In this document: positions 44,383 through 64,000 of the stretch, in pieces
Layout of the letters: every line of letters starts with the position of its first letter
Numbering within the stretch: position 1 is the stretch's first letter
Source of the DNA: Thermoflexales bacterium
GTDB taxonomy: Bacteria; Chloroflexota; Anaerolineae; J036; Brachytrichaceae
NCBI GenBank assembly: GCA_019694215.1
Contig: JAIBCK010000003.1
Span: 1 to 64,000 of the forward strand
Reading direction: 5' to 3'
Length of the DNA: 64,000 bases
Position numbers and translations under genes: made by a program
The notes under the pieces: model-generated
Database searches by the model: none
The model's input: the letters and a program-made list of their open reading frames with translations, nothing else
What the model was told of the DNA's origin: nothing

Positions 44383-47172
44383 CTAACGGACGATGATGGG
44401 CAGCCAGCGCCGTACGATGAGCTCTGGCGCTGCGGGGCATACCGCACTGATCGTGCCAGGACCGGTGAGCGTGTTGGTGTAGTAGAACGAGCCTCTCGCG
44501 ACTGAGGAGGTGAAGTAGGCCGTGGAGACGAGAATGTACTGCGTTCCGGCCGTGAGGGCCCGACTGATTCGTGGATCAAAGCCAATGGTATCGTCAACCG
44601 ACTGGAGCGCGTTTGTCAGTGGGCTACTCGGATCGAACGCCGTCTGATACAGAACATAGAAGCCATCGTTGCCGGCGGTATACATGGTCATGGTGAAGAT
44701 CCCGCTATTCCCGACCTTGAAGGGCAACGCATCGTAGTAGAAGTCGGTTCCGAAACCGGACAGTGCGGTGGGCGGATTCCCGGTCAATGGGCGATGGAAG
44801 TTGCCATCGTCCCCAAACAATCGCCCATAGCACTCCTTGGTTGTTGTGGGCACGAGCTGGAAGTTGATGGTCTGGTTGCGCGTGAGGACACCCGTATTGC
44901 TCACCGCAGCCAGGTGGGACACTGCGCCCGCAGTGAGGGCATAGCTTTGTCCACCCGCCACGAGCGTCATGCTGTAGAAGCCTGTGGCCGGGTTGGTGTT
45001 CACGGTCAAACCTGAGGTAAATGGGCTTCCTGCGGCCGATACGGTCCCTGACAGCGGCAAGCCGCTGCCCTGCTCGGTGACCGTGCCCGAAACGATGTAG
45101 CGCGGTGCCGGAGTGAGTGTCAGCGGTACCGTCACCGTCACGCCGGGAGGGATGATGATGCCCGTGATGGTCGAGGGCAAGTACCCATACGCCGATGCGG
45201 TAACGGTGTACGTTCCCGAAACCACGCCAATGATGTATCCGCCCGCCGCGCCGCCAACGGCGCTGGTGGACAATCCATACCCGTTTGAGGCGACGACCAC
45301 CGCCCCCGAAATGGGAAGCCCGGTGACCAAGTCCGTGACCGTGCCACTCACGGCGGAAGTCTGCGCCAGCACGCAGCCTGGGAACCTGAAAGAACCAATT
45401 CGCGTTGACCAATCCGACCACGAGGTCGCGGCATAGTACTCATTCGTGTACCAGAACGTGCAATCGTCCGTGGGGTCAAGCGTGAGATTGCTGTAATCGC
45501 CCCATCGGTTGGCCGTATGGGTCTGTGAGCCCCCACCGGCGATGAGCACTGTCTCGCCTTGCGAGAGCACATTCAGCGGATCTGAGGCCAGGCGGCCAGC
45601 ATATCGGATCGCAGGGAACATCGCGGCGTTCGATGCACTGAAACCGATGGCCAGGTTGCCGAGCTTGTCCTGTGCCGCGCTGCCCATCCAACGGCTGATG
45701 CCATCGGCCGGAGCATAGGTGCTCTGCTGGTAGATCGTTGGCGTAGTGGCATGGGGACTGCGAAACTCATACCAGCGCACACCCGCCACGCCGGAGCCCG
45801 CGTCAACGGTCTGATTGACCACCAGGTTCTGATAGCTCCCGAAGTTTCGATACGCCAGCCGCCACATGAAGCGGTCGCCAATCGCGTCCAGTTTTGCAGT
45901 GGTGCCGGACTGCGGCACGCAGGCCCGCGTGGTGTCGCACAACGGAGTAAAGGCTGCTACGTCGACATCGGTGGGACCGGTGAAGGTGCTGTTGGCCGGC
46001 GTCGCCCAGTCCACATGGAACTTGAAGAAGTGGACCCGGTCGGAGGGGTAGCTGGTCCATTCCGCTGCTTCGGGTGCAGCGATGATTTGCGGCGAGCCTG
46101 CCGGCGGCAAGGCCAAGCCATCGAGGTCGGCGGGCAGGCCGCCAGCGATCGTATTGATCGGACTGCCCGATGCGCTCAGTTTGAAGATCACCTGCTTGGC
46201 GGGCTGCCCGAGCAGCATCTTGTCGCGTTCGTAGGCGATCGCGGCCATGCCACTGGGCGTGAAGTCGGGCGCCGTATACGCATTCACCGTGGCGTAGTAG
46301 CCGTCTGGCCACATCCCAAAGTGTGGGTAGTCGTTCAAGTCCGTGTTGGAGAACAGGAACTCGTAGCGGTAGTAGCTGCCGGTCGGGTTCGGGCTGGTCG
46401 AAACCGCAATGCACTGGTAGAAGGGGCCGGCGTATGTGCCGATATTCGGCAGCGCGACCTGGCTGATCATCCATCGGTCAGCCAGTTGGTCGTAGAGGAC
46501 GATGGGGGAGCCGTGGTTGGTCGTTTCGCAGGGCCCGCCGAATCCGGAGAAGAGCGAGTTGACCTTGAGCGGGCCGAGGATGCGGGTGCCCGTGGTCTTG
46601 TTGAACACCCCCCAGGTGGTGTTGACGGTCTGCACGTAGTGGTTGGGGCCGACATCGCCGTTCGAATCAGGCGGAATGTACATTGGTTCGCCAACGGTGG
46701 TTTGATCGGCTGTCGTTTCGCCCAGAAAGGAGACCAGCGGGGCTGGCATCGCACGGGGCGACAGCGTCGCATCGATCGCCGTATCGTCATTCAGGCTGCT
46801 GTAGATGTCGGGCGACTCTGTCTTAAGCTGTTCGAGCGCGCTGGGCGAGAAGGTGTTGCGCCTTATTTGACGTCTCACGTTTTCTGCCAAACCAGGGGCA
46901 TTGGGATCACCGGGCCGATACAGACCCGCTTGATCCAACGCGGCCATGGTCATGGGCGACTTGTCAAAGCGGGAGGCGGTGCTGACCTCGGGCACGAGCG
47001 CATCGCCGCCCAACGCAGACAACGCTTCCTTCCCACGCGGCTGGCTGGCGATAGGCGCTGGGGCGACGAGAGGCTCTGGCTCGGGCGTCCTTGCCCGAAC
47101 CGTGGAGATCAGTCCGCTCGTGGCGATGGCGAATGAAAGAACCGTTCGAGACAGACGAGAGAATGCTTGCAT
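44383..47172 (-). CDS. Large secreted protein with carboxypeptidase-regulatory-like repeats and WLPIIVR tail (paralogue 1)
   Basis: The 929-residue protein starts with a signal peptide (about 1-27). A large domain (about 130-620) follows, with DSNGDVGPNHYVQTVNT and IVLYDQLADRWMISQ. It is shared by many bacterial secreted proteins, and its function is unknown. Two carboxypeptidase-regulatory-like beta domains lie at about 640-790 (SGTVTDLVTGLPISGA, SGTVTEQGSGLPLSG), followed by a PPC-like C-terminal domain and the tail RRWLPIIVR. The start at 47172 is preceded by AGGAGG. A minus-strand TATAAT at 47237-47242 gives a leader of about 58 nt. It is a tandem duplicate of the next gene. Confidence 0.8.
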   Translation of the reverse strand: MQAFSRLSRTVLSFAIATSGLISTVRARTPEPEPLVAPAPIASQPRGKEALSALGGDALVPEVSTASRFDKSPMTMAALDQAGLYRPGDPNAPGLAENVRRQIRRNTFSPSALEQLKTESPDIYSSLNDDTAIDATLSPRAMPAPLVSFLGETTADQTTVGEPMYIPPDSNGDVGPNHYVQTVNTTWGVFNKTTGTRILGPLKVNSLFSGFGGPCETTNHGSPIVLYDQLADRWMISQVALPNIGTYAGPFYQCIAVSTSPNPTGSYYRYEFLFSNTDLNDYPHFGMWPDGYYATVNAYTAPDFTPSGMAAIAYERDKMLLGQPAKQVIFKLSASGSPINTIAGGLPADLDGLALPPAGSPQIIAAPEAAEWTSYPSDRVHFFKFHVDWATPANSTFTGPTDVDVAAFTPLCDTTRACVPQSGTTAKLDAIGDRFMWRLAYRNFGSYQNLVVNQTVDAGSGVAGVRWYEFRSPHATTPTIYQQSTYAPADGISRWMGSAAQDKLGNLAIGFSASNAAMFPAIRYAGRLASDPLNVLSQGETVLIAGGGSQTHTANRWGDYSNLTLDPTDDCTFWYTNEYYAATSWSDWSTRIGSFRFPGCVLAQTSAVSGTVTDLVTGLPISGAVVVASNGYGLSTSAVGGAAGGYIIGVVSGTYTVTASAYGYLPSTITGIIIPPGVTVTVPLTLTPAPRYIVSGTVTEQGSGLPLSGTVSAAGSPFTSGLTVNTNPATGFYSMTLVAGGQSYALTAGAVSHLAAVSNTGVLTRNQTINFQLVPTTTKECYGRLFGDDGNFHRPLTGNPPTALSGFGTDFYYDALPFKVGNSGIFTMTMYTAGNDGFYVLYQTAFDPSSPLTNALQSVDDTIGFDPRISRALTAGTQYILVSTAYFTSSVARGSFYYTNTLTGPGTISAVCPAAPELIVRRWLPIIVR

Positions 47173-47236
47173 GCTGGTGGCCTCCTGACCACTGGTCATT
47201 GGCGGAAAAGGCCAGGTGCCCACCGCATGGCGCGGG

Positions 47237-47365: not shown

Positions 47366-50296
47366 CTACCGAAAGATGATAGGCAGCCAGCTTCGCGCCG
47401 TCAGGGCCGGCGTCGCGGTCGCCGTGGCAGTCGGCGTGGCGCTTGGCGTGGTGGTCGGTGTTGCGGTTGGCGTTGCCGTCGGCGTGGCGCTTGGCGTAGC
47501 GGTTGGTGTTGCGGTTGGCGTTGCCGTTGCCGTGTTGGTTGGGGTGGGTGTGCCTGGCGAGCACCCCGCGTTGATCACGCCAGGCCCGGTGAGCGTATTG
47601 GTGTAGTAGAACGAGCCTGTCCCGAGCGAGGCGTTGTTGTAGGCTGTTGAGACGAGAATGTACTGCGTTCCGGCTGTGAGGGCGCGACTGATTTGTGGAT
47701 CATAGGCAATGACATCGTCAACTGCCTGGAGCGCGTTTACCAGTGGCGTACTCGGGTTGAACACCGTCTGATACAGAACATAGAACCCATCGTTGCTCGC
47801 AGTAAACATTGTCATGGTATAGGTCCCGCTATTCCCCACCGTAAAGGGTAATGCATCGTAGTAGACTGCGTTACCGACGCTGGATAACCCGGTAGGTGGA
47901 TTCCCCGTTAGGGGTCGATTGAAGATCCCGTCTCCTGAAGACAATCGCCCATAGCACAGTTCGGTTGTTATGACGCCGAGCTGAAAATTGCGGGTTTGGT
48001 TGCTGGTCAGGACGCCCGTGTTGCTGATCGAGGTGCCGTGGCCCACAGCAGCTGCGGTGAGCGCATAGCTCTGGCCCCCCGCCACGAGCGTCATGCTGTA
48101 GAAGCCCGTGACCGGATTGGTGTTAACGGTCAAACTGGAGGCGTAAGGGCTTCCCGCGGCCGTTACTGTCCCCGCCAGTGGCAGACCGCTGCCTTGCTCG
48201 GTGACTGTGCCGGAAACGATGAAGCGCGGTGCCGGGGTAAGTGTGATCGGTACCGTTACCGTGACACCGTCCGGGACGATGATTCCCGTGATGGTCGATG
48301 GCGAGTACCCATACGCCGATGCTGTTACGGTGTACGTGCCGGAAACCACGCCAATGATGTAGCCGCCCCCGGCGTCACTCGCCGCGCTGTTCGAGAAGCC
48401 AGGCCCGATTGTTGCGACGACCGCTGCCCCGGCAATGGGAAGTCCAGTGGAAGAGTCCGTGACCGTGCCGCTCACGGCGGACGTTAGTACCAGCGCGCAG
48501 CCCGGAAACTTGAAGGAACCGATTCGCGTCGACCAGCCGGTTGACGAGGTCGCAGCGTAGTATTCATTGGTGTACCAGAAGGTGCAATCGTCCCTTGGGT
48601 CCAGCGTGAGATTGCTGTAGTCGCCCCATCGGTTGCCAGTGCTGGTCTGCGAGCCACCGCCGGCAACAAGCACCGCTTCGCCCTGCGAGAGCGCATTCAG
48701 CGGATCTGACACCAGCCGACCGGCATACCGGACCGCGGGGAAGATGCCGCTGCTGGAAGCGCTGAAGCCGACGGCCAGGTTGCCGAGCCTGTCCTGTGCG
48801 GCGCTGGCCATCCAACGGCTGACGCCGTCGGCGGGGGCATACGTGCTCTGCTGGTAGATGGTTGGCGTGATGGCGTGCGGGCTGCGAAACTCGTACCATC
48901 GCACGCCGGCCACGCCGGCGCCCGCGTCTACGCTCTGGTTGGCCACCAGGCTTTGGTAGCTTCCAAAGTTGCGATACGCCAGCCGCCACATGAAGCGGTC
49001 GCCAATCCCGTCCAGTTTTGAAGTGGTGCCGGATTGTGGTAGGCAGGCCCGCGTTCCGTCGCACAACGTTGCAAAGGCTGCCACATCGACATCGGTGGGG
49101 CCGGTGAAGGTGCTGTTGGCCGGCGTCGTCCAGTCCACATGGAATTTGAAGAAGTGGACCCGGTCAGAGGGGTAGTTGGTCCACTCGGCCGCTTCCGGGG
49201 CCGCGATGATTTGCGGCGAGCCGGCCGGCGGCAAGGTGGTGCCATCGAGGTCGGCGGGCAAACCGCCGCCGATCGTGTTGGTCGGGCTACCCGAGGCGCC
49301 CAGCTTGAAGATCACCTGCTGTGCTGGCTGACCGAGCAGCATCTTGTCGCGTTCGTAGGCGATCGCGGCCATGCCTCCAAAGTTGAAGGTTGGAGCGGGG
49401 AAGACGTTGACCGTGGCGTAGTAGCCGTCTGGCCACAGCCCAAAGTGCGGGTAATCGTTCATGTCCGTGTTGGAGAACAGGAACTCATACCGGTAGTAAC
49501 TGCCCGTCGGGTCCGGGCTGGTGGAGACGGCGATGCATTCGTAGAAGGGGCCGGCGTTTGAGCCGATATTCGGCAGCGCAAACTGGCTGATCATCCACCG
49601 GTCAGCGAGCTGGTCGTAGAGGACGATGGGGTCGCCGTCGTTGGTCGTTTCGCATGGCCCGCCGAATCCGGAGAAGAGCGAGTTGACCTTCAGGGGGCCC
49701 ATGATGCGGGTTCCGGTGGTTTTGCTGAATACCCCCCAGGTGGTGTTGACCGTCTGCACGTAGTGGTTGGGGCCGACATCGCCGTTTGTGTCGGGTGGGG
49801 TGTATACGGGCTCGCCAGCCGTGGTCTGATCGGCGGCCGTCTCGCCGACAAAGGATGTGATTGGGGCGGGCATTGCGAGCGGTGAGAGTGATGCATCGAT
49901 CGCCGTATCGACATTCAGGCTGCTGTAGATCTCGGGCGACTCCGTCTTGAGCTGTTCGAGCGCACCCGGCGAGAAGGTGTTTCGCTTGAGCTGACGGCTC
50001 ACGTTTTCAGCGACGGCGGGGGCAGCGGGACTGGTTGGACGATACAGGCCCGTTTGCTCCAGGGCCGCCATCGTCATGGGCGACTTGTCGTAGCGCGTGG
50101 CCATGCTGACTTCCGGCAACAGGGCTTCGGCCGCCAATGTCGGGACAGCGACTTTCTCGAGTTGCCCGCTTTCGGCGATGGCTGGCGCGGCAGTGGCCTC
50201 TGGTGCTGGCGTGAGCGCCCGGGCCGTGGTGGCCAGGCCCCCTGCGGCGACTGCGACAGAGACGAGCAGACGAGACAGACGAGAAATTGCTTTCAT
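47366..50296 (-). CDS. Large secreted protein with Thr/Pro linker and WLPIIFR tail (paralogue 2)
   Basis: The 976-residue paralogue of the preceding gene has the same order: signal peptide (about 1-29), the DTNGDVGPNHYVQ/VLYDQLADRW domain, two carboxypeptidase-regulatory-like domains and a PPC-like domain. It then gains a linker of about 50 residues built from TATPTATP-type repeats before the tail ARSWLPIIFR. The linker corresponds to a 48-bp tandem repeat in the DNA. The start at 50296 (MKAISRLSRLL) is preceded by AGGAAACC. The longer frame to 50941 runs through the divergent MFS gene and is not coding. The linker suggests the tail is held away from the body, as in surface anchors. Confidence 0.8.
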   Translation of the reverse strand: MKAISRLSRLLVSVAVAAGGLATTARALTPAPEATAAPAIAESGQLEKVAVPTLAAEALLPEVSMATRYDKSPMTMAALEQTGLYRPTSPAAPAVAENVSRQLKRNTFSPGALEQLKTESPEIYSSLNVDTAIDASLSPLAMPAPITSFVGETAADQTTAGEPVYTPPDTNGDVGPNHYVQTVNTTWGVFSKTTGTRIMGPLKVNSLFSGFGGPCETTNDGDPIVLYDQLADRWMISQFALPNIGSNAGPFYECIAVSTSPDPTGSYYRYEFLFSNTDMNDYPHFGLWPDGYYATVNVFPAPTFNFGGMAAIAYERDKMLLGQPAQQVIFKLGASGSPTNTIGGGLPADLDGTTLPPAGSPQIIAAPEAAEWTNYPSDRVHFFKFHVDWTTPANSTFTGPTDVDVAAFATLCDGTRACLPQSGTTSKLDGIGDRFMWRLAYRNFGSYQSLVANQSVDAGAGVAGVRWYEFRSPHAITPTIYQQSTYAPADGVSRWMASAAQDRLGNLAVGFSASSSGIFPAVRYAGRLVSDPLNALSQGEAVLVAGGGSQTSTGNRWGDYSNLTLDPRDDCTFWYTNEYYAATSSTGWSTRIGSFKFPGCALVLTSAVSGTVTDSSTGLPIAGAAVVATIGPGFSNSAASDAGGGYIIGVVSGTYTVTASAYGYSPSTITGIIVPDGVTVTVPITLTPAPRFIVSGTVTEQGSGLPLAGTVTAAGSPYASSLTVNTNPVTGFYSMTLVAGGQSYALTAAAVGHGTSISNTGVLTSNQTRNFQLGVITTELCYGRLSSGDGIFNRPLTGNPPTGLSSVGNAVYYDALPFTVGNSGTYTMTMFTASNDGFYVLYQTVFNPSTPLVNALQAVDDVIAYDPQISRALTAGTQYILVSTAYNNASLGTGSFYYTNTLTGPGVINAGCSPGTPTPTNTATATPTATPTATPSATPTATPTATPTTTPSATPTATATATPALTARSWLPIIFR
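47430..47525. repeat. 48-bp tandem repeat encoding the Thr/Pro linker
   Basis: Units at 47430-47477 and 47478-47525 differ at only a few bases, and each encodes 16 residues of the TATPTATP pattern. Degenerate copies flank them (about 47405-47560). Length variation between strains is likely. Confidence 0.8.
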
Positions 50297-50368
50297 GGTT
50301 TCCTGTGGCCTCCCCGACCAGCGGTATGCGATCCGATTCGGTGCTCGCCACAAGGGCGCCGCGGCGGC

Positions 50369-50374
50369 ATTATA
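50369..50374 (-). promoter_or_regulatory. -10 element of secreted paralogue 2
   Basis: The minus strand reads TATAAT about 73 nt before the start, with GCCCGC 17 bp upstream as in paralogue 1. Confidence 0.5.
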
Positions 50375-50423
50375 GATTGACCATGCTGTTTGCGGGCTAA
50401 GTCTCGCCCGAAAGCGGGACGGT

Positions 50424-50429
50424 GATAAT
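50424..50429 (+). promoter_or_regulatory. Possible -10 element for the MFS gene
   Basis: GATAAT is followed by 11 nt and then ATG 50441, so the leader would be about 5 nt at most. Confidence 0.4.
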
Positions 50430-50440
50430 GTGCCGCCGTC

Positions 50441-51622
50441 ATGACTGCTCAGCGAGACTTGCCACACGCCCGTATGCGCCAGACCCGGCTCTATCTGTTC
50501 GGCTTTGTCGCGCTGGGCCTGATCGATGCCGCGATTGGTCCCTCGCTCGGTCCTCTGGCACGCTCGTTTGGCGTCGACCTCGCTGCCGTCGCATCGGCGC
50601 TGGTCGCCATGGCCGTTGGCCGGCTGCTTGGTTCGGCGCTTTCGGGACGCCTTTATGCCCTGCCTGCGCCGCATCGTACGCTGGCGCTTGGGTTTGCGTT
50701 CTCGGCGCTGATGGCGCTCGCGATCACCCTCACCCAATCGGTACCCGGGATGCTGGTGGTCGGCTTCGGCCTCGGGATCGTGTCGAGCACGGTGGACGTC
50801 GGGTCGAACACCCTGATTCAGTGGGCACATGGCGAACGGGTCGGGCCCTACATGAACGCCCTGCACGTCGCCTTCGGAATCGGCGGCGCGCTGGCACCTC
50901 CCACCGTCGCGATGTCGCTGCAGGCCGTCACTGGTGTGCAATTCGCCTGGGCGGTCGTGGCCGCGCTCTGCCTGCTCACGGCACTGGCTGCCCTGCGCAC
51001 GCCGGCCCCGCCGCCGTCCGCCGCCCAGGCCCAGGGCACAAAGAACAAAATCAGCCCACTCGTGCTTCTGCCGCTTGGCGTGACATTTTTTCTTTACGTC
51101 GGCGCTGAAGCGTCACTCGTCACCTGGCTCACCGACTACGGCGTGTTGATGGGCATGGACCGTGTCGGCGCCGCGACGGCCCTGGCTACGGGGTTCTGGG
51201 TCACCTACATCGTGGGTCGCCTGACCGCCATCGCCCTGACGCGCCGCATCGCGCCGCTGCGCGTGGCGCTGGGAGGGCTCGTGCTGGGCGCGCTGGCCGC
51301 CATCCTGTTCGTCCTCTCATCGGCTCATGTGGAGGGCGGCAATGCCCCGCTGTGGGTGGCCGTCCTGGCGATGGGGCTCGGCTTTGGACCGGTCTTTCCC
51401 AATGCCGTGAGCGTTGCCGGCGCGCGCCTTGGGGCCACTTCGGGCCTGACGAGCTTCCTCTTTGTCGTGGCGGGGGCAGGGGCCACCTTCTGGCCGTGGT
51501 GGGTGGGGCAGCGCATCGATGCCACCGCCGGCGGGGTTGTGCCCTGGGTGGCCGCGGCCTGCATGGCAGGTTCTTTCGTTGGCTTTTCCGCCTTCCTGCT
51601 GCGCACCCGTCAGCGCCTCTGA
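50441..51622 (+). CDS. MFS transporter (FucP/YfkF-like, sugar or drug)
   Basis: The 393-residue protein has about twelve membrane segments, with a central cytoplasmic loop at about 188-203 rich in Pro/Ala/Gln. SSTVDVGSNTLIQW and ALHVAFGIGGALAPP resemble the FucP-type sugar-symporter branch, where Asn/His residues in these helices contact substrate. ATG 50441 is 11 nt after GATAAT without a Shine-Dalgarno site. A perfect hairpin separates it from the convergent isocitrate dehydrogenase gene. Confidence 0.85.
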   Translation: MTAQRDLPHARMRQTRLYLFGFVALGLIDAAIGPSLGPLARSFGVDLAAVASALVAMAVGRLLGSALSGRLYALPAPHRTLALGFAFSALMALAITLTQSVPGMLVVGFGLGIVSSTVDVGSNTLIQWAHGERVGPYMNALHVAFGIGGALAPPTVAMSLQAVTGVQFAWAVVAALCLLTALAALRTPAPPPSAAQAQGTKNKISPLVLLPLGVTFFLYVGAEASLVTWLTDYGVLMGMDRVGAATALATGFWVTYIVGRLTAIALTRRIAPLRVALGGLVLGALAAILFVLSSAHVEGGNAPLWVAVLAMGLGFGPVFPNAVSVAGARLGATSGLTSFLFVVAGAGATFWPWWVGQRIDATAGGVVPWVAAACMAGSFVGFSAFLLRTRQRL

Positions 51623-53131: not shown

Positions 53132-56100
53132 CTACTCGGTACGCCGCAGACGCGCAGGCAACAGCGGCGCGAGCATGCGGCGGTCAATGGGGGACAGGGC
53201 TTCGAGGCCCACCAGCGCGACCGCGTAGACCAGGACGCCGACGACGACGCCCAGGCCCAGCAGACCGACGCCGGACAGGATGTAGATCGAGAGCGCCATC
53301 AGCGCCGCGGCGATGAGCGGCCGTCCCAGCAGCCGGTGCCACTTCAGGCGTGTGATGTGCGCGCGCACAAAGACGTAGAACGCCGCAAGTTGCGCCAGCT
53401 CGGACAATGCCGTGATGGCGGCCGCTGCGACGAAGCCATAGCGCGGCAGGAAGATGATGTTCGCGATCAGGTTGAAGGCCACCGCGGCCACGAAGGCGCC
53501 CACCAGGCGGCGCTGTTGGCCCACGGCAATCAACGCGTAGTTGGTCACGCTATTGATCCAGCCAAACGGCATGTGCCAGATGGTGATCGAAAGCGCCAGT
53601 GCACCCTGCGGCAGGAAGGCGTCGCCGCCCAGCACCTTGATCAGCGGACCCGCCGCGAACGTGACGACCACGGCGAGCGGCAGGGCCAGCATCCACAGCA
53701 GTTTGACCGCAAGCACATAGGCGCGCGCCAGAGGGTTGTCCGTTGGAGAGCCTGGCTCCCGCTCGCCGGCCATGCGCGACAGGGTCGGGAAGAGCGCCTG
53801 GGTAAACAGGGAGGGGACGATGTTGAAGGCGTCAATGTATTTGTAGCCGGCCGTGTAGTAGCCCACCTGTGTCTCGCTGCGGGTGAACCCCTTGAGCAGC
53901 GGAACATCCAGACGCCAGAAGATCGTGCTGAGCAGGTGGTTGATCGCGAGCGGCGATGCCTCACGCAGAATTGCCAGGCGCGACATGGGCTGAGGCCCTT
54001 CGCGCGGCAACGAGAAGGGCAGGTGCAGGATACGCCGTGCGAGTACGAGCAGCACGCCGAGTGTGATCAGGTTGGTCGCGATCGAGGTCATGGCCAGCCC
54101 GACGATCCCCCAGCCGCCCAGCAGCAGGGCCGCCCCGAGCGCGGCCTTGATGAGCGCGCTGACGATGGTCAGCCCAGCCGGCACCTCGGCCTTGTCGTGG
54201 GCGAAGAACAGCGCGCTCAGCCCGGTCGCCAGGCTGCCGGGGATCTGGCTCAGGGTCAGAAGCAGCAGCGTGGTCTGCGTGTCGACCGAGATGCCATCGC
54301 TGCTGGCGTACAGCGCGATGACGATCAGGACGAGCGGCGTCGCCAGCGCGCCGAGCATCAGGCGAAGGACGCTGGTGTCAAAGAAGTAGCGGAAGGCGTT
54401 GGCCTTGTCCCGGGCGGCATCCCGAATCAGAAACGTGTTCAGGCCGAAATTCATCAGGATCTCGAACCAGCTCACGATGACGACGGCAAACGAGTAGTTG
54501 CCCGCGCCCGCTGGCCCGAGCACACGCAGCATGAGGAAGGCGAAGGCCATGTCAATCACGCGCGCGACCAGGTTCAGCCCGGTCAGCAGCAGGCTGTTGC
54601 GGGCGATGACGCGCACGGCATGCGTGTCATCGGGGGTTCCACGCGCGCGCCAGAGATACAGCGTGGCCAACGCAAGCAGCGACACGAGGCCAATGAAGCT
54701 GGCAAATGCACCGATGCGCAGCGAATCCGGCGCATAACGGAAACGAATGGTCAGTGGCGTTGCGGAGGCCTCCAGCTTGACCGCGCGGAAGTTGCCGTTC
54801 ACACGCTGGATGTCGAGGTCGGTGAAGGTGTTGTCACCCGCGTCGGTGGACCTGACCATCGCCCGCCAGCCCGCAAAGGCGCTGTCGGTCAGGATCAGCC
54901 AGCGGCCTTCGCCGGCCGGGACATCGATCCATACCTCGTTGTTGCGATAGGACGTGATGGTTGCCGGCCCGGGCTCGGAGGGTGTGCCCGTGGTTGGCGC
55001 ACCGCCTCCCTCGAACACGGCCAGTCGACGCGGGTCCCGCGTTTGCACGGCATTGGCGAAGCTTGTGACGCGCTCGGCGGCGGCCAGGGGCAGGGTGTAG
55101 GCGCGGGGCAGGGCGCGCGTGTTCTCGTAAATCGAAACGTGGCCATCGTCAAAGACGCGTTTGAGGCCGGGCACGGAGAGTGCATCGCGGCTCTGGGCGA
55201 GCACAAATCGCACCCCCAGCACATCGACCAGCGGTGACGACAGGCTGGCCGCGCGCTGAAACGGCGCGATGCGGTTGTAGGGCAGCTCGCCCTGGGGCTC
55301 GATGGCCTGCATGTAGTCGACATATTGACGCGGGATGATCGAGTCGTAGCCGCGGATGTCCTGCAGGTCGAACCACCACGCCAGGTTGGCGTTGAGTGGC
55401 TTTCCACCGTTTGGCTCATAGGTTGTCAATCGCCACTGACCGGGCTGCTGCTTGAGAAAGCCGATGGCTTCCGGTGTCACCTTGAGCAGGGCCGGGTCGA
55501 CGGCCGGGTTGAATCCCGTCCATGCCAGTGCACAATCGGCGACCACGAGGGCAATGGCGGCCATGGCGCCGAGGTGACGCCGGCGCGCGCTGCCCAACGC
55601 CAGAAGAATGGTACCGCTGGCCAACGTCCACACAGCCAGACCAAAGGCATTTACGGCTTCCAGGCTGAAGAACAGCTCCGGTGTAAAGCCGTCATCGGCC
55701 AGGTCGAGGCGCTCGATCACCCGGGCCAGCGGCTCGCGCAAGGCGGTGAAACCCAGCCGCGCAAAGACGATCAGCGCGACCAGCATGGCCCCTGCGATGA
55801 GCAAGGCGCGTCCGACCTTGCGCAGGCGTTCGCCGGCCGGCTTGCGCAGGGCGGCATCGAGGCCGGCCCCGGCCAGCAAACTCAAGGCGATGGTGAGCGG
55901 GTAGATCCAGCGGAAGGGCGAGTGCAGCTGGTTGATCCCCGGCAGCCCGTAATACAAGATCGCATACAGCGGCGTACCGAAGATGAACCCCACGCAGGCG
56001 ACGGCCAGGACGACGAAGAACCAGCGCGGGAAGGCGCCCGCCAACGCCCCACGCTCATTGGCCAGCCATCGTCCCCGTCGCCGAACACCCTGCAGCGCGG

Positions 56101-57214
56101 CATAGGCCGCCAGTAGCAACGTGAGGATGCCGACATAGGCCGCGCCCTCGACCGAGTTCTTCCAGCGGCCGTCCTGCCACCAGGTGTGACCACTCGGGGT
56201 GGGGACCGCCGCAAAGCGCAGGCCGAAGACGTCGAAATACTGGTGCTGCGCCTCCGAACCAAAGAAGTTTGGCATCAGCCAGCGCAGCCAGCCCAGGCTC
56301 TTCGGAAAGCCATAGCTCAGCACCTGCGCGAAGTCGGCGCGTCCGGCGCGGAAGCTCTGGGTCACCAACTCGTACAACGGCAGAAGCTGGATGGCCCCCA
56401 ACAGCCCGCCGCCGAGCGCCATGGCGGTGAGACCGGCCAGCGGACGAATCCACGCCCGTGCACCGCGCCGTCGGGTGATGACGATCAGGCGCCAGCTCGA
56501 GAACGCGACGGTAAGAATTGCCGTGTAGAGCGTGACCTCGACATGCCCGGCCAGGATCTGGCAGCCCAGTGCAAAGGCCCCGAGTACGGCCCAGGGCACC
56601 GTGGCCGGTCGTCCCCGCAGCCCGGGAGCCTGGTGGATGATCCGGTCCGCCATCGCCAGCACAAGGGGCATCCAGGCAGCGGCGGCGATGATCATCTGAA
56701 ACACCACCGAGGACAGCATGAAACCGCTCAGCTCATAGGCCAGCCCGGCAAACAGCGCGCCTGCCCGGCCCAGCCCAAGCGTGCGCGCAAACACAAACAT
56801 GAAGACACCGGCCAGACCGAGGTTGAGCACGGTGAACCAGCCATACGCGGCCTCGAGCGGCAGCACGTAGTACAGGATACTCAGTGGGTACAGCGCAGAA
56901 TGTTGACCTGCGGCTAGAAAGGGCACGCCGGCGAACAGGTTCGGATTCCACAGCGGCAGCTCGCCCTGGCCGAGCGACGACAGGATGAAGTGCTTCCAGG
57001 CGTAGTTTTCGAGGACGAGATCGGAGAGCAGGTGGTTCTGCGGGCGACCGACGCCGAGCGTCGACGCCATCGACGCGAAAGGCTCGTACTGGAAGATGTT
57101 GTCCGCGGGCAGCAGCGTGAGGCCTCCCACCGTCACTGGCAGGAAGAGCAGGAAGGGTGCCAGCAACAGCGCCAGCACACAGGCGGTCGTGGCGAAACGC
57201 CGCAAACGGGCCAT
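53132..57214 (-). CDS. YfhO-family membrane protein fused to a Wzx/MATE-type flippase
   Basis: The 1360-residue protein has an N-terminal YfhO/GT-C-like membrane part with more than ten hydrophobic segments (about 1-590) and an extracytoplasmic region with its closing membrane helix (about 590-860). From about 865 (RVIARNSLLLTGLNLVARV) it continues into a complete polysaccharide flippase of the MOP superfamily, with YFFDTSVLRLMLG and FWRLDVPLLKGFTRSE. YfhO proteins are linked to glycosylation of wall polymers and lipids, and flippases move lipid-linked sugars. The fusion implies direct coupling. Start 57214 (MARLRRFATT) overlaps the upstream stop as TGATG. No frameshift is seen. Confidence 0.85.
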   Translation of the reverse strand: MARLRRFATTACVLALLLAPFLLFLPVTVGGLTLLPADNIFQYEPFASMASTLGVGRPQNHLLSDLVLENYAWKHFILSSLGQGELPLWNPNLFAGVPFLAAGQHSALYPLSILYYVLPLEAAYGWFTVLNLGLAGVFMFVFARTLGLGRAGALFAGLAYELSGFMLSSVVFQMIIAAAAWMPLVLAMADRIIHQAPGLRGRPATVPWAVLGAFALGCQILAGHVEVTLYTAILTVAFSSWRLIVITRRRGARAWIRPLAGLTAMALGGGLLGAIQLLPLYELVTQSFRAGRADFAQVLSYGFPKSLGWLRWLMPNFFGSEAQHQYFDVFGLRFAAVPTPSGHTWWQDGRWKNSVEGAAYVGILTLLLAAYAALQGVRRRGRWLANERGALAGAFPRWFFVVLAVACVGFIFGTPLYAILYYGLPGINQLHSPFRWIYPLTIALSLLAGAGLDAALRKPAGERLRKVGRALLIAGAMLVALIVFARLGFTALREPLARVIERLDLADDGFTPELFFSLEAVNAFGLAVWTLASGTILLALGSARRRHLGAMAAIALVVADCALAWTGFNPAVDPALLKVTPEAIGFLKQQPGQWRLTTYEPNGGKPLNANLAWWFDLQDIRGYDSIIPRQYVDYMQAIEPQGELPYNRIAPFQRAASLSSPLVDVLGVRFVLAQSRDALSVPGLKRVFDDGHVSIYENTRALPRAYTLPLAAAERVTSFANAVQTRDPRRLAVFEGGGAPTTGTPSEPGPATITSYRNNEVWIDVPAGEGRWLILTDSAFAGWRAMVRSTDAGDNTFTDLDIQRVNGNFRAVKLEASATPLTIRFRYAPDSLRIGAFASFIGLVSLLALATLYLWRARGTPDDTHAVRVIARNSLLLTGLNLVARVIDMAFAFLMLRVLGPAGAGNYSFAVVIVSWFEILMNFGLNTFLIRDAARDKANAFRYFFDTSVLRLMLGALATPLVLIVIALYASSDGISVDTQTTLLLLTLSQIPGSLATGLSALFFAHDKAEVPAGLTIVSALIKAALGAALLLGGWGIVGLAMTSIATNLITLGVLLVLARRILHLPFSLPREGPQPMSRLAILREASPLAINHLLSTIFWRLDVPLLKGFTRSETQVGYYTAGYKYIDAFNIVPSLFTQALFPTLSRMAGEREPGSPTDNPLARAYVLAVKLLWMLALPLAVVVTFAAGPLIKVLGGDAFLPQGALALSITIWHMPFGWINSVTNYALIAVGQQRRLVGAFVAAVAFNLIANIIFLPRYGFVAAAAITALSELAQLAAFYVFVRAHITRLKWHRLLGRPLIAAALMALSIYILSGVGLLGLGVVVGVLVYAVALVGLEALSPIDRRMLAPLLPARLRRTE

Positions 57215-57861
57215 CAGTAGAACGACTCGATCTTCCAGCCGCGCTGGCGCGCCACCGCGCGCAGCTTGCGATCCGGGTTGATGGCGACGGGCTGGCCCAC
57301 CGCGTGCATCAACGGCAGGTCCGACGCCGAATCGGTATAAAACGTGCAATCCTTCAGGCTCGCACCGCGCTCCCCCGCGATTCGCTGTGCCCAGTACAGC
57401 TTGCCGGCGCCAAAGCACGGCTCGCCCACCACGGCGCCAGTCAGTGCGCCACGCTCGACGGCGAGCTCGGTGCAACAGTACGGCATGTCGACGTGTTCGG
57501 CGACGGGACGCACTGCGAACTGTGTGGAGGCAGAGAGCAGCACGGCGTACTCGCCGGCTTTCTCGTGCTCGCGCACCCGCGCGACGGCCTTCGGGGCGAT
57601 GTGTGGGGCGAGCTCATCCTCGAACCATTTGTCGCACAACGTTTTGAGATTGGAAGCGCTCCCGCCCTTGATGCTGCTGCTCAGGCGCGCCATTGCCTTC
57701 GGGAAGTTCATCAGATTGAGCGAGTACTGCGCGCTGATGATCACCACGCTGGCCAGCTCGCCCACCGTGAGCGCGCGTCGGCGCCACAGATACTTGACGA
57801 ATTGAATGCCACTGCTCACATCGAGCAGGGTCTTGTCCATGTCAAAAAACGCAATGCGCAT
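57214..57861 (-). CDS. HAD-IB phosphatase (SerB/CicA-like)
   Basis: The 215-residue HAD-IB hydrolase has motif I FFDMDKTLLDVSSG, motif II LLSASTQF, a lysine in GAGKLYWAQ and motif IV YTDSASDLPLM. It is related to phosphoserine phosphatase and CicA-type proteins. Its place between a PIG-L deacetylase and a YfhO-flippase suggests it removes phosphate from a sugar- or lipid-linked intermediate, which is inference. It starts 3 nt after the PIG-L gene and overlaps the next gene by 1 nt. Confidence 0.88.
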   Translation of the reverse strand: MRIAFFDMDKTLLDVSSGIQFVKYLWRRRALTVGELASVVIISAQYSLNLMNFPKAMARLSSSIKGGSASNLKTLCDKWFEDELAPHIAPKAVARVREHEKAGEYAVLLSASTQFAVRPVAEHVDMPYCCTELAVERGALTGAVVGEPCFGAGKLYWAQRIAGERGASLKDCTFYTDSASDLPLMHAVGQPVAINPDRKLRAVARQRGWKIESFY

Positions 57862-57864
57862 GAG

Positions 57865-58752
57865 CTACTCCGCGAACAGGTCAGTCTTTAGCCTGCCCCG
57901 CGCTGGCGCTGCGGGATAGGCTTGCGAGAAGCGCTCATCGGCGCTGCGTCGGAAGAACAGCCGTTGGATGAGCGGCTGTCCCTTGGTTGGCATTTGTTGG
58001 CTGGCGTGGCAGGCTGAGGCGGCCCGCTTGACCTCGATCACCGGGCGAATATCGATGCGCACATGGGGCGGCAGGTCCCACGACGCGATCTGAACGAGGT
58101 CGATGTCGTGATTGCGCCCCCAGCGGCGGGGATCCTTGCCGGTCCAACGCAAGGCGCGCGCACCCCAGCGCACAAAGCGCTTGGGGAAGACCGAGTAGAA
58201 CAGGCGCGGCGCTGGCATGCCGTCCGCGAGTGCCGGGTCGAGCGGCGCGCCGATGCTGACCGTGGACGCGCCATCGGGAGCGTAGCCGATCCGAATCCCC
58301 CAGGCCAGCTCATACAGCCGCAGCGTGGCGCGGTGGCACTGGATGTGATCGGGGTGCCCGTAGCCGCCGTACTGGTCATGCGTGATCAGCACGTTTGGCC
58401 GGTGGGCCACAACGAAACCCGCAAGACGTCGGGCCGCAACATCGATGTCCGCCTGCACAAAGGCATCCGCGCGCGCGTTGTCGGGCGAGCCTTTCATGCC
58501 GGAGTCGCGGAAGCCGAGATAGGCATACGAAGCCAGGCCGAGTGCCTTCGATGCGCAGGCCAGCTCGGTGTCCCGCAGGTCCTCGACACTGGCATAGCCC
58601 TCGAGGCGATGCGCATCGACGGTGCCGGACTCGCCACGCGTCGCGCACAGGTAGTGCACGCTGACGCCAGCGCGCGCATAGTGGGCGAGGGTGCCGCCGA
58701 TGCCAAACGACTCGTCATCGGGGTGCGCCAGAAAGGCGAGCAGGGTGCTCAT
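57865..58752 (-). CDS. PIG-L family N-acetylglucosaminyl deacetylase
   Basis: The 295-residue LmbE/PIG-L protein has the zinc-binding AHPDDES near residue 10 and the second metal motif HPDHIQCH around 140. It deacetylates an N-acetylglucosamine group on a lipid- or thiol-linked sugar. About 50 C-terminal residues look non-conserved. Start 58752 (MSTLLAFLAHPDDE) is the family N-terminus and overlaps the dehydratase stop as ATGA. The longer frame to 58899 lies inside the upstream gene. Confidence 0.9.
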   Translation of the reverse strand: MSTLLAFLAHPDDESFGIGGTLAHYARAGVSVHYLCATRGESGTVDAHRLEGYASVEDLRDTELACASKALGLASYAYLGFRDSGMKGSPDNARADAFVQADIDVAARRLAGFVVAHRPNVLITHDQYGGYGHPDHIQCHRATLRLYELAWGIRIGYAPDGASTVSIGAPLDPALADGMPAPRLFYSVFPKRFVRWGARALRWTGKDPRRWGRNHDIDLVQIASWDLPPHVRIDIRPVIEVKRAASACHASQQMPTKGQPLIQRLFFRRSADERFSQAYPAAPARGRLKTDLFAE

Positions 58753-59708
58753 CGTCCAATCACCCCCTCCGGTCCGGCGCCACAGACAAGCACGCAGGCG
58801 CGATCGTCCGGCCGCAGCTTGAGTTTCCCCGTCAGAAGGCCGGCCGCGGCGGCAGCCCCGCTCAACTCGGCGGCGATGCCGTACTCGAAGTACAGCCACT
58901 CGGCTGCGGCCTGCATCTCGTCATCGGTGAGCAGCGCGACCTCGGCGACGTTGGCCCGGATCAGCTCGAAGTTGATCGGCTCGGTCGACCGCGCCGCGAG
59001 CGTGCCCACGCGCGTCGTGACCCGCTCCAGCGTAACCGGGTGTCCGGCGCGCAGGCTGTCATGCACCGCGCTGGCACCCACCGGCTCGACGCCGAGGATG
59101 CGGATGGCCGGGTTGATCGCGCGGGCAGCCAGCGCAACGCCGCTGATCAACCCGCCGCCGCCGATTGCGGCGATGATCACGGTCGTGTCCGGCGCATCCT
59201 CCAGAATTTCCAGGGCCAGCGTAGCCTGCCCGGCGATCACCAGCGGGTCGGCGAAGGGGTGGATGTAGGCGGCCCCGTGTTGGCTCGCAAAATCCTGCGC
59301 GATTCTGTTGGCCTCGTCCCACACACCGCCTTCGACCGACACCGTCGCCCCCCACGTGCGCAATTTCTCGACTTTGTGGGTGGGTGTCGTCGTCGGCACA
59401 ACGATGCGGGCCGGGATGCCGGCGCGCCAGGCGGCAAATGCGACCCCCAGCCCGTGGTTGCCCCCTGAGGCCGTGACCAGCCCGTTTGCCAACGCCTCGG
59501 GTGGCAGGCTTAGCGCCTTGTTGAGCGCGCCGCGCGCCTTGAATGAACCGGAGACCTGCAGATATTCCAGCTTGAAGTCGACGCGCCCGATACTCGAGAG
59601 GGTCCGTTTTGCGGGCCCAATGGCGAGGTGCGGAGTGCGGCGGATGCCCGACGCGATGCGCGCGTGCGCGGCCCGGACATCGCCCAGGGTGGGAAGGGAA
59701 TGCGTCAT
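58749..59708 (-). CDS. Threonine/serine dehydratase (PLP fold type II)
   Basis: The 319-residue enzyme has the PLP lysine K57 in SGSFKARGA, the phosphate-binding ASGGNHGLGVAFAA and the loop GGGGLISG. It lacks the C-terminal ACT-like regulatory domain of biosynthetic IlvA. It should be a catabolic threonine or serine dehydratase, or a serine/threo-3-hydroxyaspartate type. It begins at 59708 with a TGATG overlap to the threonine aldolase gene. Confidence 0.9.
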   Translation of the reverse strand: MTHSLPTLGDVRAAHARIASGIRRTPHLAIGPAKRTLSSIGRVDFKLEYLQVSGSFKARGALNKALSLPPEALANGLVTASGGNHGLGVAFAAWRAGIPARIVVPTTTPTHKVEKLRTWGATVSVEGGVWDEANRIAQDFASQHGAAYIHPFADPLVIAGQATLALEILEDAPDTTVIIAAIGGGGLISGVALAARAINPAIRILGVEPVGASAVHDSLRAGHPVTLERVTTRVGTLAARSTEPINFELIRANVAEVALLTDDEMQAAAEWLYFEYGIAAELSGAAAAAGLLTGKLKLRPDDRACVLVCGAGPEGVIGR

Positions 59709-61816: not shown

Positions 61817-64000
61817 CTATTGGACCTTGGGATCGAGCGGGAACTCCAAGACGGTGCCGTTGGTGGCGTTCGCGACATACAGTTTCCCGTTTCCGACCCC
61901 CACGCCGGTGGGCCGATCCGCGTCGCCGAATGCAACATTGGGCAGGCTGACCGGCGCGCCGGTCAGCGAGAAGGCAAGCACATTGTGCGTGCGTGGGCTC
62001 GTGACGAACAGCGTGGTGCCACTCACCGCCGCGTAGGGCTTGTTGTCGACGGCCTGCAATTCCTCAGGCTTCAAGCCCTCCCAGGCGGTGATTGGGAAGC
62101 TGCGAACGGGCTTGAGGTTGGCGTCCAGCACCTGGATGCGGCGATTCCAAGTGTCCACGACATAGACGTTGTTGGCCGCGTCGAGCGCGAGCCCGACAGG
62201 CTCGCGGAACTGACCGGCGCCATCGCCCTCGCCGCCAACCTGGCCCTGGAAGTTGCCCTCGCTGTCAAACATCTGGATGCGCTTGTTGCCCGTATCGGTG
62301 ACGTAGACGCGGCCATTGCCTCCCACCTTGATGTCGCGCGGGCCAAAGAAGACGGTGTTGCGGCCCTGTCCCGCGTCCTGGCTGACTCCACCGCCGCCAA
62401 ACGAAAAGAGCAGGGCGCCATCGCTGGTGAACTTCTGCACGCGGTGGTTGAAGGTGTCAGCCACCCAGACAAAGCCTTCCCGGTCGACGGTGATGCCCCA
62501 CGGCTCCTGGAAGTTGCCGGGCTCACTGCCTTCGCCGCCGAAGGTGAGTTTTGTGTTGCCCGCGCTGTCCATGAGCACGATGCGATCATTGCGCCGGTCG
62601 GTGACATAGCGATCGCCGTTGGCCAGCACGCTGATCCCGCCCGGGGTGAAGGGGCCCAGCCCCGATGGCGCAGACGGCGCTGGAATTGGGTCCTTTGGCT
62701 TGATGGAGGTGCCACTGGAGTCGCCGCCGGCGACGCTGCCGAGCTTGAGCTGCCACACCTGTGCCGCAATGTCGTTGCGGATGTACAGGCCAAAGCGACC
62801 CGAGGGCGACCAGTTGTCGGGCCGGAGGTTGGTCTTGTTGAAGAGCTTCGCGTAGGGTTCGTAGTTGCGGTTGAAGACGATCTCCCACAGCGCCTGGCGG
62901 GCCTGCGGATTGACCAGCGAGTAGCGCAGCCGCTCGAAGGTCATGTCCTTGTAGTCCTCGACCGGCCACCACACATACGCATACTCGAAGCGCGTGAAGT
63001 TCTCGGCCAGCTTCTTGTCGATCTCTTCGCGCTTGGGCGTGTCGTTGCCATAGAGAAAGGCCCCGTACGTCATGAAGTCGCCGGGGAACTCATCGCCCTG
63101 GAAGCGCGCATTCGGGAACTGGCTCGAGCGCATGTACCAGGTCAGCGGCCAGCTCACCTTGCTGTCATAGCCGACCTTGATCGTGTTGCCGTTGTTCAGG
63201 CGGTTCGAAATGTCCTCGAGCTGGTTGATGGCGATCTTGACGCCTGGTGCGCCGTGCGCGTAGAAGAGATACTCGCGCGTGTAATCGTAGTTGATGTAGG
63301 TGACCATGATGGCCGTGCGGATGCACAGCACAGCCAACACGGAGAAAATGCCAAACGTAAATAGCCGGGATGTCAAACCGGGCGCCAATCGGCGGATGCC
63401 GAACAGGATGGCGACCAGCATGCCGACACCGACGACGAGGTCACCGACAAAACGCACCAGCGCCGCGCCGTTGTCCTTGGCCGGTATGTCCACGCTGCCG
63501 ACCACGGCCAGGATTCTCGCCAGCGTGAGGGCGGCGGCCAGCCCGAGCCCGGCTGCCAGCGCGACGCGGGCGGGCGGCGAGGCGCGCCATGCCTTTCCGC
63601 CACTGACAACGAGCTCGTTGATGAAGAGGCCCGTCAGCAGCGCCAGGGGCAGCGCGATGTGCGAGGTCAGCCACGGCATCTTTTCGCCGGCTGTGCTGTA
63701 GATCGCGAAGGTCGAGACCGCCCACCACACCACGAAGAGCTGCAGGCTGCGGCTGGGCGAGAGCCATTGCCGGAAGTCAAAGTTGCGATCAAAGCCGCTT
63801 ACGTCGATCTCCAGCGGCCCGAAACTGAGGATGCCGCGCGGCGCATCGGTCTCGGTGACCCGCTCCGCCGGCGCGGGAGTGTCGTCCTGACGCGACGTTC
63901 GCCCGGCGAGGATCAACACGATTCCGCCGATCCCACCAGCCAACGCGAAGAATTCATACAGCGGCACCAGCAGCATGTAGTAGTACCAGGGCTGCGTGCC
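61817..64000 (-). CDS. Agl23-like membrane glycosyltransferase-associated protein fused to NHL repeats (5' end beyond window)
   Basis: About 728 residues are visible, and the frame is open through the right edge, so the N-terminus is missing. The first visible residues (QPWYYYMLLVPLYEFF) and the following membrane helices match the TIGR03663/Agl23 group of GT-C-type membrane proteins. An extracytoplasmic segment follows. From about residue 440 of the visible part there are six NHL repeats (for example GITVDREGFVWVADTFNHRV), which should form a beta-propeller. It likely acts in surface glycan or glycoprotein assembly at the membrane exterior. A terminator follows the gene. Confidence 0.85.
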   Translation of the reverse strand, partial: GTQPWYYYMLLVPLYEFFALAGGIGGIVLILAGRTSRQDDTPAPAERVTETDAPRGILSFGPLEIDVSGFDRNFDFRQWLSPSRSLQLFVVWWAVSTFAIYSTAGEKMPWLTSHIALPLALLTGLFINELVVSGGKAWRASPPARVALAAGLGLAAALTLARILAVVGSVDIPAKDNGAALVRFVGDLVVGVGMLVAILFGIRRLAPGLTSRLFTFGIFSVLAVLCIRTAIMVTYINYDYTREYLFYAHGAPGVKIAINQLEDISNRLNNGNTIKVGYDSKVSWPLTWYMRSSQFPNARFQGDEFPGDFMTYGAFLYGNDTPKREEIDKKLAENFTRFEYAYVWWPVEDYKDMTFERLRYSLVNPQARQALWEIVFNRNYEPYAKLFNKTNLRPDNWSPSGRFGLYIRNDIAAQVWQLKLGSVAGGDSSGTSIKPKDPIPAPSAPSGLGPFTPGGISVLANGDRYVTDRRNDRIVLMDSAGNTKLTFGGEGSEPGNFQEPWGITVDREGFVWVADTFNHRVQKFTSDGALLFSFGGGGVSQDAGQGRNTVFFGPRDIKVGGNGRVYVTDTGNKRIQMFDSEGNFQGQVGGEGDGAGQFREPVGLALDAANNVYVVDTWNRRIQVLDANLKPVRSFPITAWEGLKPEELQAVDNKPYAAVSGTTLFVTSPRTHNVLAFSLTGAPVSLPNVAFGDADRPTGVGVGNGKLYVANATNGTVLEFPLDPKVQ

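Follow-up and report, generated by a model that had tools for sequence, protein, structure and literature searches.

Can one chain carry both an enzyme that transfers sugars at the outer face of the membrane and the flippase that delivers them, and if so, what would the two halves do for each other? This question is raised by a gene in a 64,000-nucleotide stretch of DNA from a Thermoflexales bacterium (GenBank assembly GCA_019694215.1, contig JAIBCK010000003.1, positions 1 to 64,000 of the forward strand; hereafter the window), whose genome is a 3.4 Mb draft of 184 contigs. An earlier note, made from the letters of this DNA, had claimed that a single open frame joins a YfhO-type membrane protein to a lipid-linked-sugar flippase at about residue 865. 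We found that the fusion is real, with a YfhO-type glycosyltransferase of the GT-C family at its N-terminus and a flippase of the MOP family at its C-terminus (Table 1), and we propose that it probably flips a lipid-linked sugar and transfers it.

A GT-C enzyme and a MOP flippase in one reading frame

The frame is open on the minus strand from the ATG at 57214 to the TAG at 53132, whereas the plus strand has stops. Both modules scored above Pfam cut-offs: YfhO (PF09586) matched residues 106-336, and these residues only, with 44.4 bits against a cut-off of 28.5, and the flippase half was matched by Polysacc_synt (PF01943; residues 871-1148, 79.8 bits against 28.2) and Polysacc_synt_3 (PF13440; residues 895-1201, 69.6 bits against 23). 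A weak spore_V_B match was also obtained from NCBIfam. The junction lay close to where the earlier note had placed it, between the last GT-C helix and the first flippase helix, which starts at residue 865/866 in the models.

The two halves were modelled separately. The model of residues 1-880 had a predicted local distance difference test score (pLDDT) of 87.5 and a predicted template modelling score (pTM) of 0.90, and its predicted fold is that of a GT-C enzyme. Foldseek searches with this half returned AftD (E 2.7e-8) and ArnT (5.8e-7), with AglB also at E 0.001 or better and DPY19 next (1.0e-3). In VIA-align, AftD gave a Z of 18.3 (root-mean-square deviation, rmsd, 5.6; 587 residues aligned) and ArnT a Z of 12.3 (rmsd 6.4; 488 aligned), the latter in the range under about 13 that may reflect an arrangement common in helical bundles. 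The beta-sandwich of the predicted outer region resembled a domain of dextranase 5axg with a middling score (Z 7.8); outer carbohydrate-binding domains are described for GT-C enzymes of larger size, for example AftD and, potentially, Staphylococcus aureus YfhO (PMC8035078). The model of residues 862-1360 (499 residues; pLDDT 92.8, pTM 0.90) showed a predicted MOP fold, with WzxE (9g9p, E 1.0e-9) and MurJ (7wax, TM-score (TMq) 0.78) as top Foldseek matches. By profile and predicted fold, the halves are thus of the kinds that had been named.

Conserved acidic residues in an outer loop, as DxD or a modified DxD, are described as a mark of GT-C enzymes (PMC8035078). The predicted first outer loop of the fusion carries two such residues, D38 and D65, which, together with H224, E226, R289, K352, E356, and R435, do not vary among the 58 fused GT-C modules compared. 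Their position after the first helix suggests that they form the active site, and the loop itself is probably on the outer side. The D38 column was unusable for stand-alone YfhO proteins because the local profile match had trimmed their N-termini; in the raw N-termini, the first loop was shorter in most. In the flippase half, R897, R931, R951, N1221, N1252, and E1272 were invariant in all 62 modules counted as fused, including two cut by contig ends (L034 and L035), one interrupted (L048), and one with a shortened partner (L109). The arginine-rich linker, read by the positive-inside rule, would form a cytoplasmic loop.

We consider it somewhat better than an even chance that the fusion is a single-chain "flip and transfer" glycosylation protein. 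A cytoplasmic family GT2 glycosyltransferase of the dolichyl-phosphate-mannose-synthase type would load one sugar onto polyprenyl phosphate, the C-terminal MOP module would turn the lipid-sugar to the outer face, and the N-terminal GT-C module, with D38 and D65 in its first outer loop, would transfer the sugar to an acceptor at the cell surface, which the outer beta-domain perhaps holds. The order of the parts (GT-C, outer beta-domain, last helix, short arginine-rich linker, flippase) would give each half the membrane orientation that it needs. We infer the orientation of both halves, a polyprenyl-phosphate monosaccharide as the substrate, supply of the GT-C half by its own flippase half, and a tether that favours hand-over.

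The same folds would also suit an oligosaccharyltransferase-like machine, in which the cargo of the flippase is a diphosphate-linked oligosaccharide, like that of Wzx and WzxE, and the whole glycan is transferred by the GT-C half in the manner of STT3, PglB, and AglB. The nearest flippase folds, WzxE and MurJ, agree with such a machine, as do the oligosaccharyltransferase chains among the GT-C matches, namely the yeast catalytic chain 8agb_A (Z 17.5, rmsd 4.3, 444 aligned), which we take to be Stt3 from its length, and PglB 3rce (Z 14.4). However, AftD was tied with or above these chains in VIA-align, and the STT3 signature motif WWDXG is missing from the consensus of 36 fusions, the window copy having a WWQDG near residue 345 that its relatives do not keep. 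In addition, the GT2 encoded beside other fusions (see below) is nearest to a monophosphate-sugar synthase, and YfhO enzymes are described with C55-phosphate (C55-P) monosaccharides (PMC8035078). We therefore regard a whole-glycan machine as improbable.

Table 1. Features of the fusion gene and of the genes directly upstream (positions in the window).
Feature	Coordinates	Strand	Basis or remark
Fusion gene, GT-C glycosyltransferase (YfhO-type) + MOP flippase	53132..57214	-	1360 amino acids
GT-C/YfhO module, residues 1-857	54644..57214	-	PF09586, model of 1-880, Foldseek, VIA-align
D38 codon, predicted first outer loop, after first helix	57101..57103	-	invariant in 58/58 fused GT-C modules
D65 codon, predicted first outer loop	57020..57022	-	invariant in 58/58 fused GT-C modules
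Predicted outer-face soluble region, about residues 595-827	54734..55432	-	model; ends in beta-sandwich 703-828
Last GT-C transmembrane helix, residues 830-857	54644..54727	-	model
Junction/linker, residues 858-865	54620..54643	-	family consensus arginine-rich (WLWRxxYRE...VRRVAKNS)
MOP (Wzx/MurJ-type) flippase module, residues 866-1360	53135..54619	-	PF01943, PF13440, model of 862-1360, Foldseek
HAD-IB phosphatase, directly upstream of the fusion	57214..57861	-	stop overlaps the fusion ATG by one base (TGATG)
PIG-L-type deacetylase, upstream of the HAD gene	57865..58899	-	start codon uncertain

Conservation and descent of the fusion

The same fusion was sought in 59 other genomes from the genus, family, and class of the window. 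An open frame of at least 1300 amino acids matched in both modules in 44 of them and was uninterrupted in 43, including the single-contig genomes G021 and G036; in G056 (L048, G056:C1:2783516-2787547), it was interrupted by one in-frame TGA. Pieces only were detected in nine genomes (G001, G011, G019, G023, G030, G048, G050, G051, and G052), and each piece stopped about 120 bases or less from a contig end. Six genomes (G022, G024, G029, G038, G053, and G058) had weaker matches or none, and in none of the 59 were the two halves seen as separate neighbouring genes. The earlier note had held that a split pair in close relatives, together with an assembly error at the junction, would speak against the fusion; no such pair appeared. 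The draft state of the source genome leaves some room for an artefact or local accident of its assembly. Nevertheless, because the same one-frame junction recurs across dozens of assemblies, single-contig ones among them, and the partial copies stop at contig ends, an assembly join was rejected, and we give it practically no chance.

In a wider survey, 301 genomes drawn evenly across the phylum were searched with a profile restricted to the junction (residues 760-1010). The whole junction was matched in 37 genomes, inside and outside the class of the window, in open frames of 896 to 1500 amino acids; in two families of that class, f27 and f34 (17 and 6 genomes, respectively), the match was absent or weak. 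When 36 fusions were aligned, the other 35 were 40-57% identical to the window copy, with invariant residues through both halves. A scan of named genome contigs with six 8-residue patterns retrieved 12 loci, all from Chloroflexota metagenome-assembled genomes by title (Chloroflexi, Chloroflexota, Anaerolineae, Anaerolineales, Thermoflexales, Thermoflexia, or Thermoflexus); none of the 12 was outside the phylum, which is a weak test given the exact patterns. A report of such a fusion was not found in the open-access library searched, which does not show that none exists.

The descent of the fusion was examined in two quick tree searches that have SH-aLRT (Shimodaira-Hasegawa-like approximate likelihood ratio test) support only and include flagged long branches. 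The flippase tree covered 100 modules; 60 fused and 20 stand-alone ones shared a clade (SH-aLRT 100) to which the 20 other MOP proteins from the phylum did not belong. Fused and stand-alone forms were mixed inside this clade, requiring at least six changes, three of which are forced by well-supported branches. In the GT-C tree, all 58 fused modules and L031 made up a single clade (SH-aLRT 99) that excluded 22 stand-alone YfhO proteins; L031 bears a stand-alone label in this tree but is a fusion truncated by a contig end. Ahead of the flippase core, 11 of the 20 stand-alone flippases of the clade had one more hydrophobic helix, versus none of the 20 other MOP proteins, and three of these 11 (L082, L088, and L089) carried the linker motif seen in fused proteins (LWRR/LWQR ... 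YRD). In the remaining nine, no such helix was seen with the starts chosen; the scripted start codon was the first in frame, and the N-terminal lengths of stand-alone flippases are therefore uncertain.

The surroundings of the stand-alone flippases were inspected in 20 loci of 4.7-14.5 kb. No fused-type YfhO lay beside any of them; L079 has an ordinary YfhO paralogue, encoded on the opposite strand at a distance of about 6 kb. No fused-type GT-C was found elsewhere in these 20 genomes either, the best single match scoring 232 bits versus 720 and 751 in two fused controls. In family f43, two genomes (L111 and L115) have a GT2 gene followed by the fusion, and a third, G239 (L083), has the GT2 gene, 64 bases, and then a lone flippase whose N-terminus, with the start that we chose, is like the fused linker. 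At L109:5430-8084, the GT-C half of a fusion is cut down to about 400 residues, which may represent a step towards losing the enzyme half. The single clade of fused GT-C modules, the stand-alone flippases scattered among fused ones, and the helix and linker left over in some of these together point to one old fusion followed by losses of the GT-C half in several lineages. With the flippase clade rooted only uncertainly, the ancestor may alternatively have been a flippase on its own that had the additional helix.

We tentatively suggest, as a possibility that is still rather doubtful, that the MOP half passes the polyprenyl-phosphate sugar straight to the GT-C half, that this arrangement arose once and early in the phylum, and that the enzyme half was later deleted in several lineages, leaving the last helix and the linker as a scar. 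The same parts could also work without hand-over, if the fusion served only to keep the halves at a 1:1 ratio or to insert them into the membrane together, with the flippase feeding a common pool of polyprenyl-phosphate sugar used by other GT-C enzymes as well. Flippases of the clade occur alone in genomes without a fused-type GT-C and are therefore useful without that half, and further YfhO-type proteins occur in the genomes, the only other locus found by the protein search of the source genome being a stand-alone YfhO protein of 879 amino acids. On the other hand, a fused pair with one shared junction has persisted despite deep divergence within the phylum, more than an accident of expression alone would call for. 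We judge the arrangement without hand-over unlikely, and putative channelling of the lipid-sugar between the halves, as in the proposed flip and transfer, plausible.

Neighbouring genes and the source of the lipid-linked sugar

A dolichyl-phosphate-mannose-synthase-like GT2 gene was located directly upstream of the fusion, on the same strand, in 21 of the 56 fused loci whose upstream sequence reached 600 bases or more (two with less were set aside). The spacing ranged from a 72-base overlap to a 224-base gap; L061 is a possible 22nd case, with an overlap of 303 bases that depends on the start chosen. The GT2 of L047, the only one compared with solved structures, matched dolichol monophosphate mannose synthase 5mlz best (E 1.2e-33), and five GT2 proteins had sub-threshold NCBIfam matches only, several of them to polyprenyl- or dolichyl-phosphate sugar synthases. 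The earlier note had suggested that the YfhO half uses the flipped lipid-linked sugar. This idea is supported in part: the GT-C fold, the acidic residues that do not vary, and the synthase gene upstream in these 21 loci all agree with it.

Such a GT2 is also encoded in the genome of the window, on contig 37 (262 bits, 54% identity over query residues 5-222). In a set of 51 genomes that we selected, with a threshold of 260 bits, it was present in 20 of 22 genomes with the fusion (including G337, which has the shortened GT-C). In f27 loci L158, L161, and L162, a V4R-like gene, a response regulator, and a GT2 gene follow one another with no fusion after the GT2, and the same gene order precedes the fusion in L027, L029, and L045; it was not seen in f34 loci L159 and L160. 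The V4R-like and response-regulator labels are our own, with no family search behind them.

Several observations weigh against the proposed flip and transfer. The window's own family has no GT2 beside the fusion in any of its 14 loci, and 34 of the 56 fused loci lack an adjacent one (35 by script, less L061). The GT2 reached 260 bits in 10 of 13 fusion-free class-mates from f27 and f34 and in 6 of 16 genomes with a stand-alone flippase. The GT2 is thus also common without the fusion, so its co-occurrence does not single it out as the partner, and we rejected co-occurrence as proof of a link. Resemblance of fold is by itself no proof of activity; WzxE and MurJ, the nearest flippase folds, move diphosphate-linked glycans, not monophosphate sugars, and the NCBIfam equivalog for Wzx exopolysaccharide flippases (NF041871) scored 50.6 bits against a cut-off of 800. 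A GtrA-family protein, another candidate flippase, was found in 27 of 30 genomes tested, including that of the window (20 of 23 with the fusion and 7 of 7 without). The fused flippase therefore need not be the only supplier, exclusive use is unsupported, and absence of GtrA fails as an argument that the MOP half must be the flippase. The three genomes without a GtrA match all carry the fusion, and two of them (G077 and G320) have an adjacent GT2. Finally, glycosylation of lipoteichoic acid in Listeria is reported to need GtcA and not the Wzx homologue tested (PMC7389260).

Should direct hand-over between the halves prove true, the fusion would identify which flippase partners a YfhO-type enzyme, and movement of monophosphate-sugar lipids by MOP proteins would become testable on one molecule. 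The identity of the flippase for polyprenyl- and dolichyl-phosphate monosaccharides is unsettled in many systems; GtrA-type proteins and, for some bacteria, Wzx-type proteins have been proposed (PMC8035078). A natural fusion of GT-C and MOP modules points to a pairing, and a single chain allows flipping and transfer to be measured together. The fusion is also a conserved envelope gene of a phylum in which, in our judgement, surface glycans have received little study.

The HAD-IB phosphatase and the PIG-L-type deacetylase of the window were linked to the fusion only in the one congeneric genome seen (67% and 65% identity, respectively; L017/L031, same contig). The neighbouring isocitrate dehydrogenase was without a match in any fetched locus, and the sole match to the other window neighbours beside 38 other fusions (flanks of up to 7 kb) was a PALP-type protein (28.5% identity, L043). 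A conserved operon around the fusion was consequently rejected, as the neighbours are not kept beyond the HAD and PIG-L genes of the congeneric genome.

Elsewhere in the window, a minus-strand frame at 61817-64000, cut by the window end, encodes a membrane protein that ends in NHL repeats. Its N-terminal part matched TIGR03663, "flippase activity-associated protein Agl23", with 71.2 bits against a cut-off of 126.25, which would place another glycosylation-type membrane protein about 4.6 kb upstream of the fusion. Two tandem minus-strand genes (44383-47223 and 47366-50941) encode large proteins with 79% identity over 919 residues. A carboxypeptidase-regulatory-like domain (Pfam) is present in the first, the second weakly matched an S-layer glycoprotein model (39.8 of 1400 bits), and both are possible surface proteins.

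Comparison with known systems

Both modules have relatives that stand alone in the database entries matched. WzxE and MurJ share the predicted fold of the C-terminal module at about 14-19% identity. AftD, ArnT, and the oligosaccharyltransferases share the predicted GT-C fold of the N-terminal module at about 8-16% identity and have no flippase half in those entries. AglR, the proposed flippase of an archaeal system considered below, is presumably of the MOP type.

Multi-component transmembrane glycosylation systems are described as a synthase, a flippase, and a GT-C enzyme, and in the systems that PMC8035078 sets out, CsbB/GtcA/YfhO and GacI/GacK/GacL, these parts are separate proteins. In the CsbB/GtcA/YfhO systems of Bacillus, Staphylococcus, and Listeria, the GT-C enzyme is likewise a YfhO protein and receives its C55-P-sugar from a GT-A synthase and a flippase; however, the flippase is the small GtrA-type protein GtcA, with 3-4 helices, whereas the flippase fused here belongs to the MOP family of 12-14 helices (PMC8035078, PMC7389260). 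The GacI/GacJ/GacK/GacL system of Streptococcus pyogenes likewise pairs a Wzx-type flippase, GacK, with a GT-C enzyme, GacL, but as separate proteins, and GacL is listed there with a PMT-2 domain rather than YfhO (PMC8035078). AglD/AglR/AglS of Haloferax volcanii likewise comprise a dolichyl-phosphate-mannose synthase, a proposed dolichyl-phosphate-mannose flippase, and an outer mannosyltransferase; in contrast to the fusion, they are archaeal and are described as separate proteins (PMC3871713).

In the window, the flippase and the GT-C enzyme lie on one chain and not on separate polypeptides. By analogy, the fusion resembles these multi-component glycosylation systems with two of their parts joined, in a form that is widespread among the relatives of its host.

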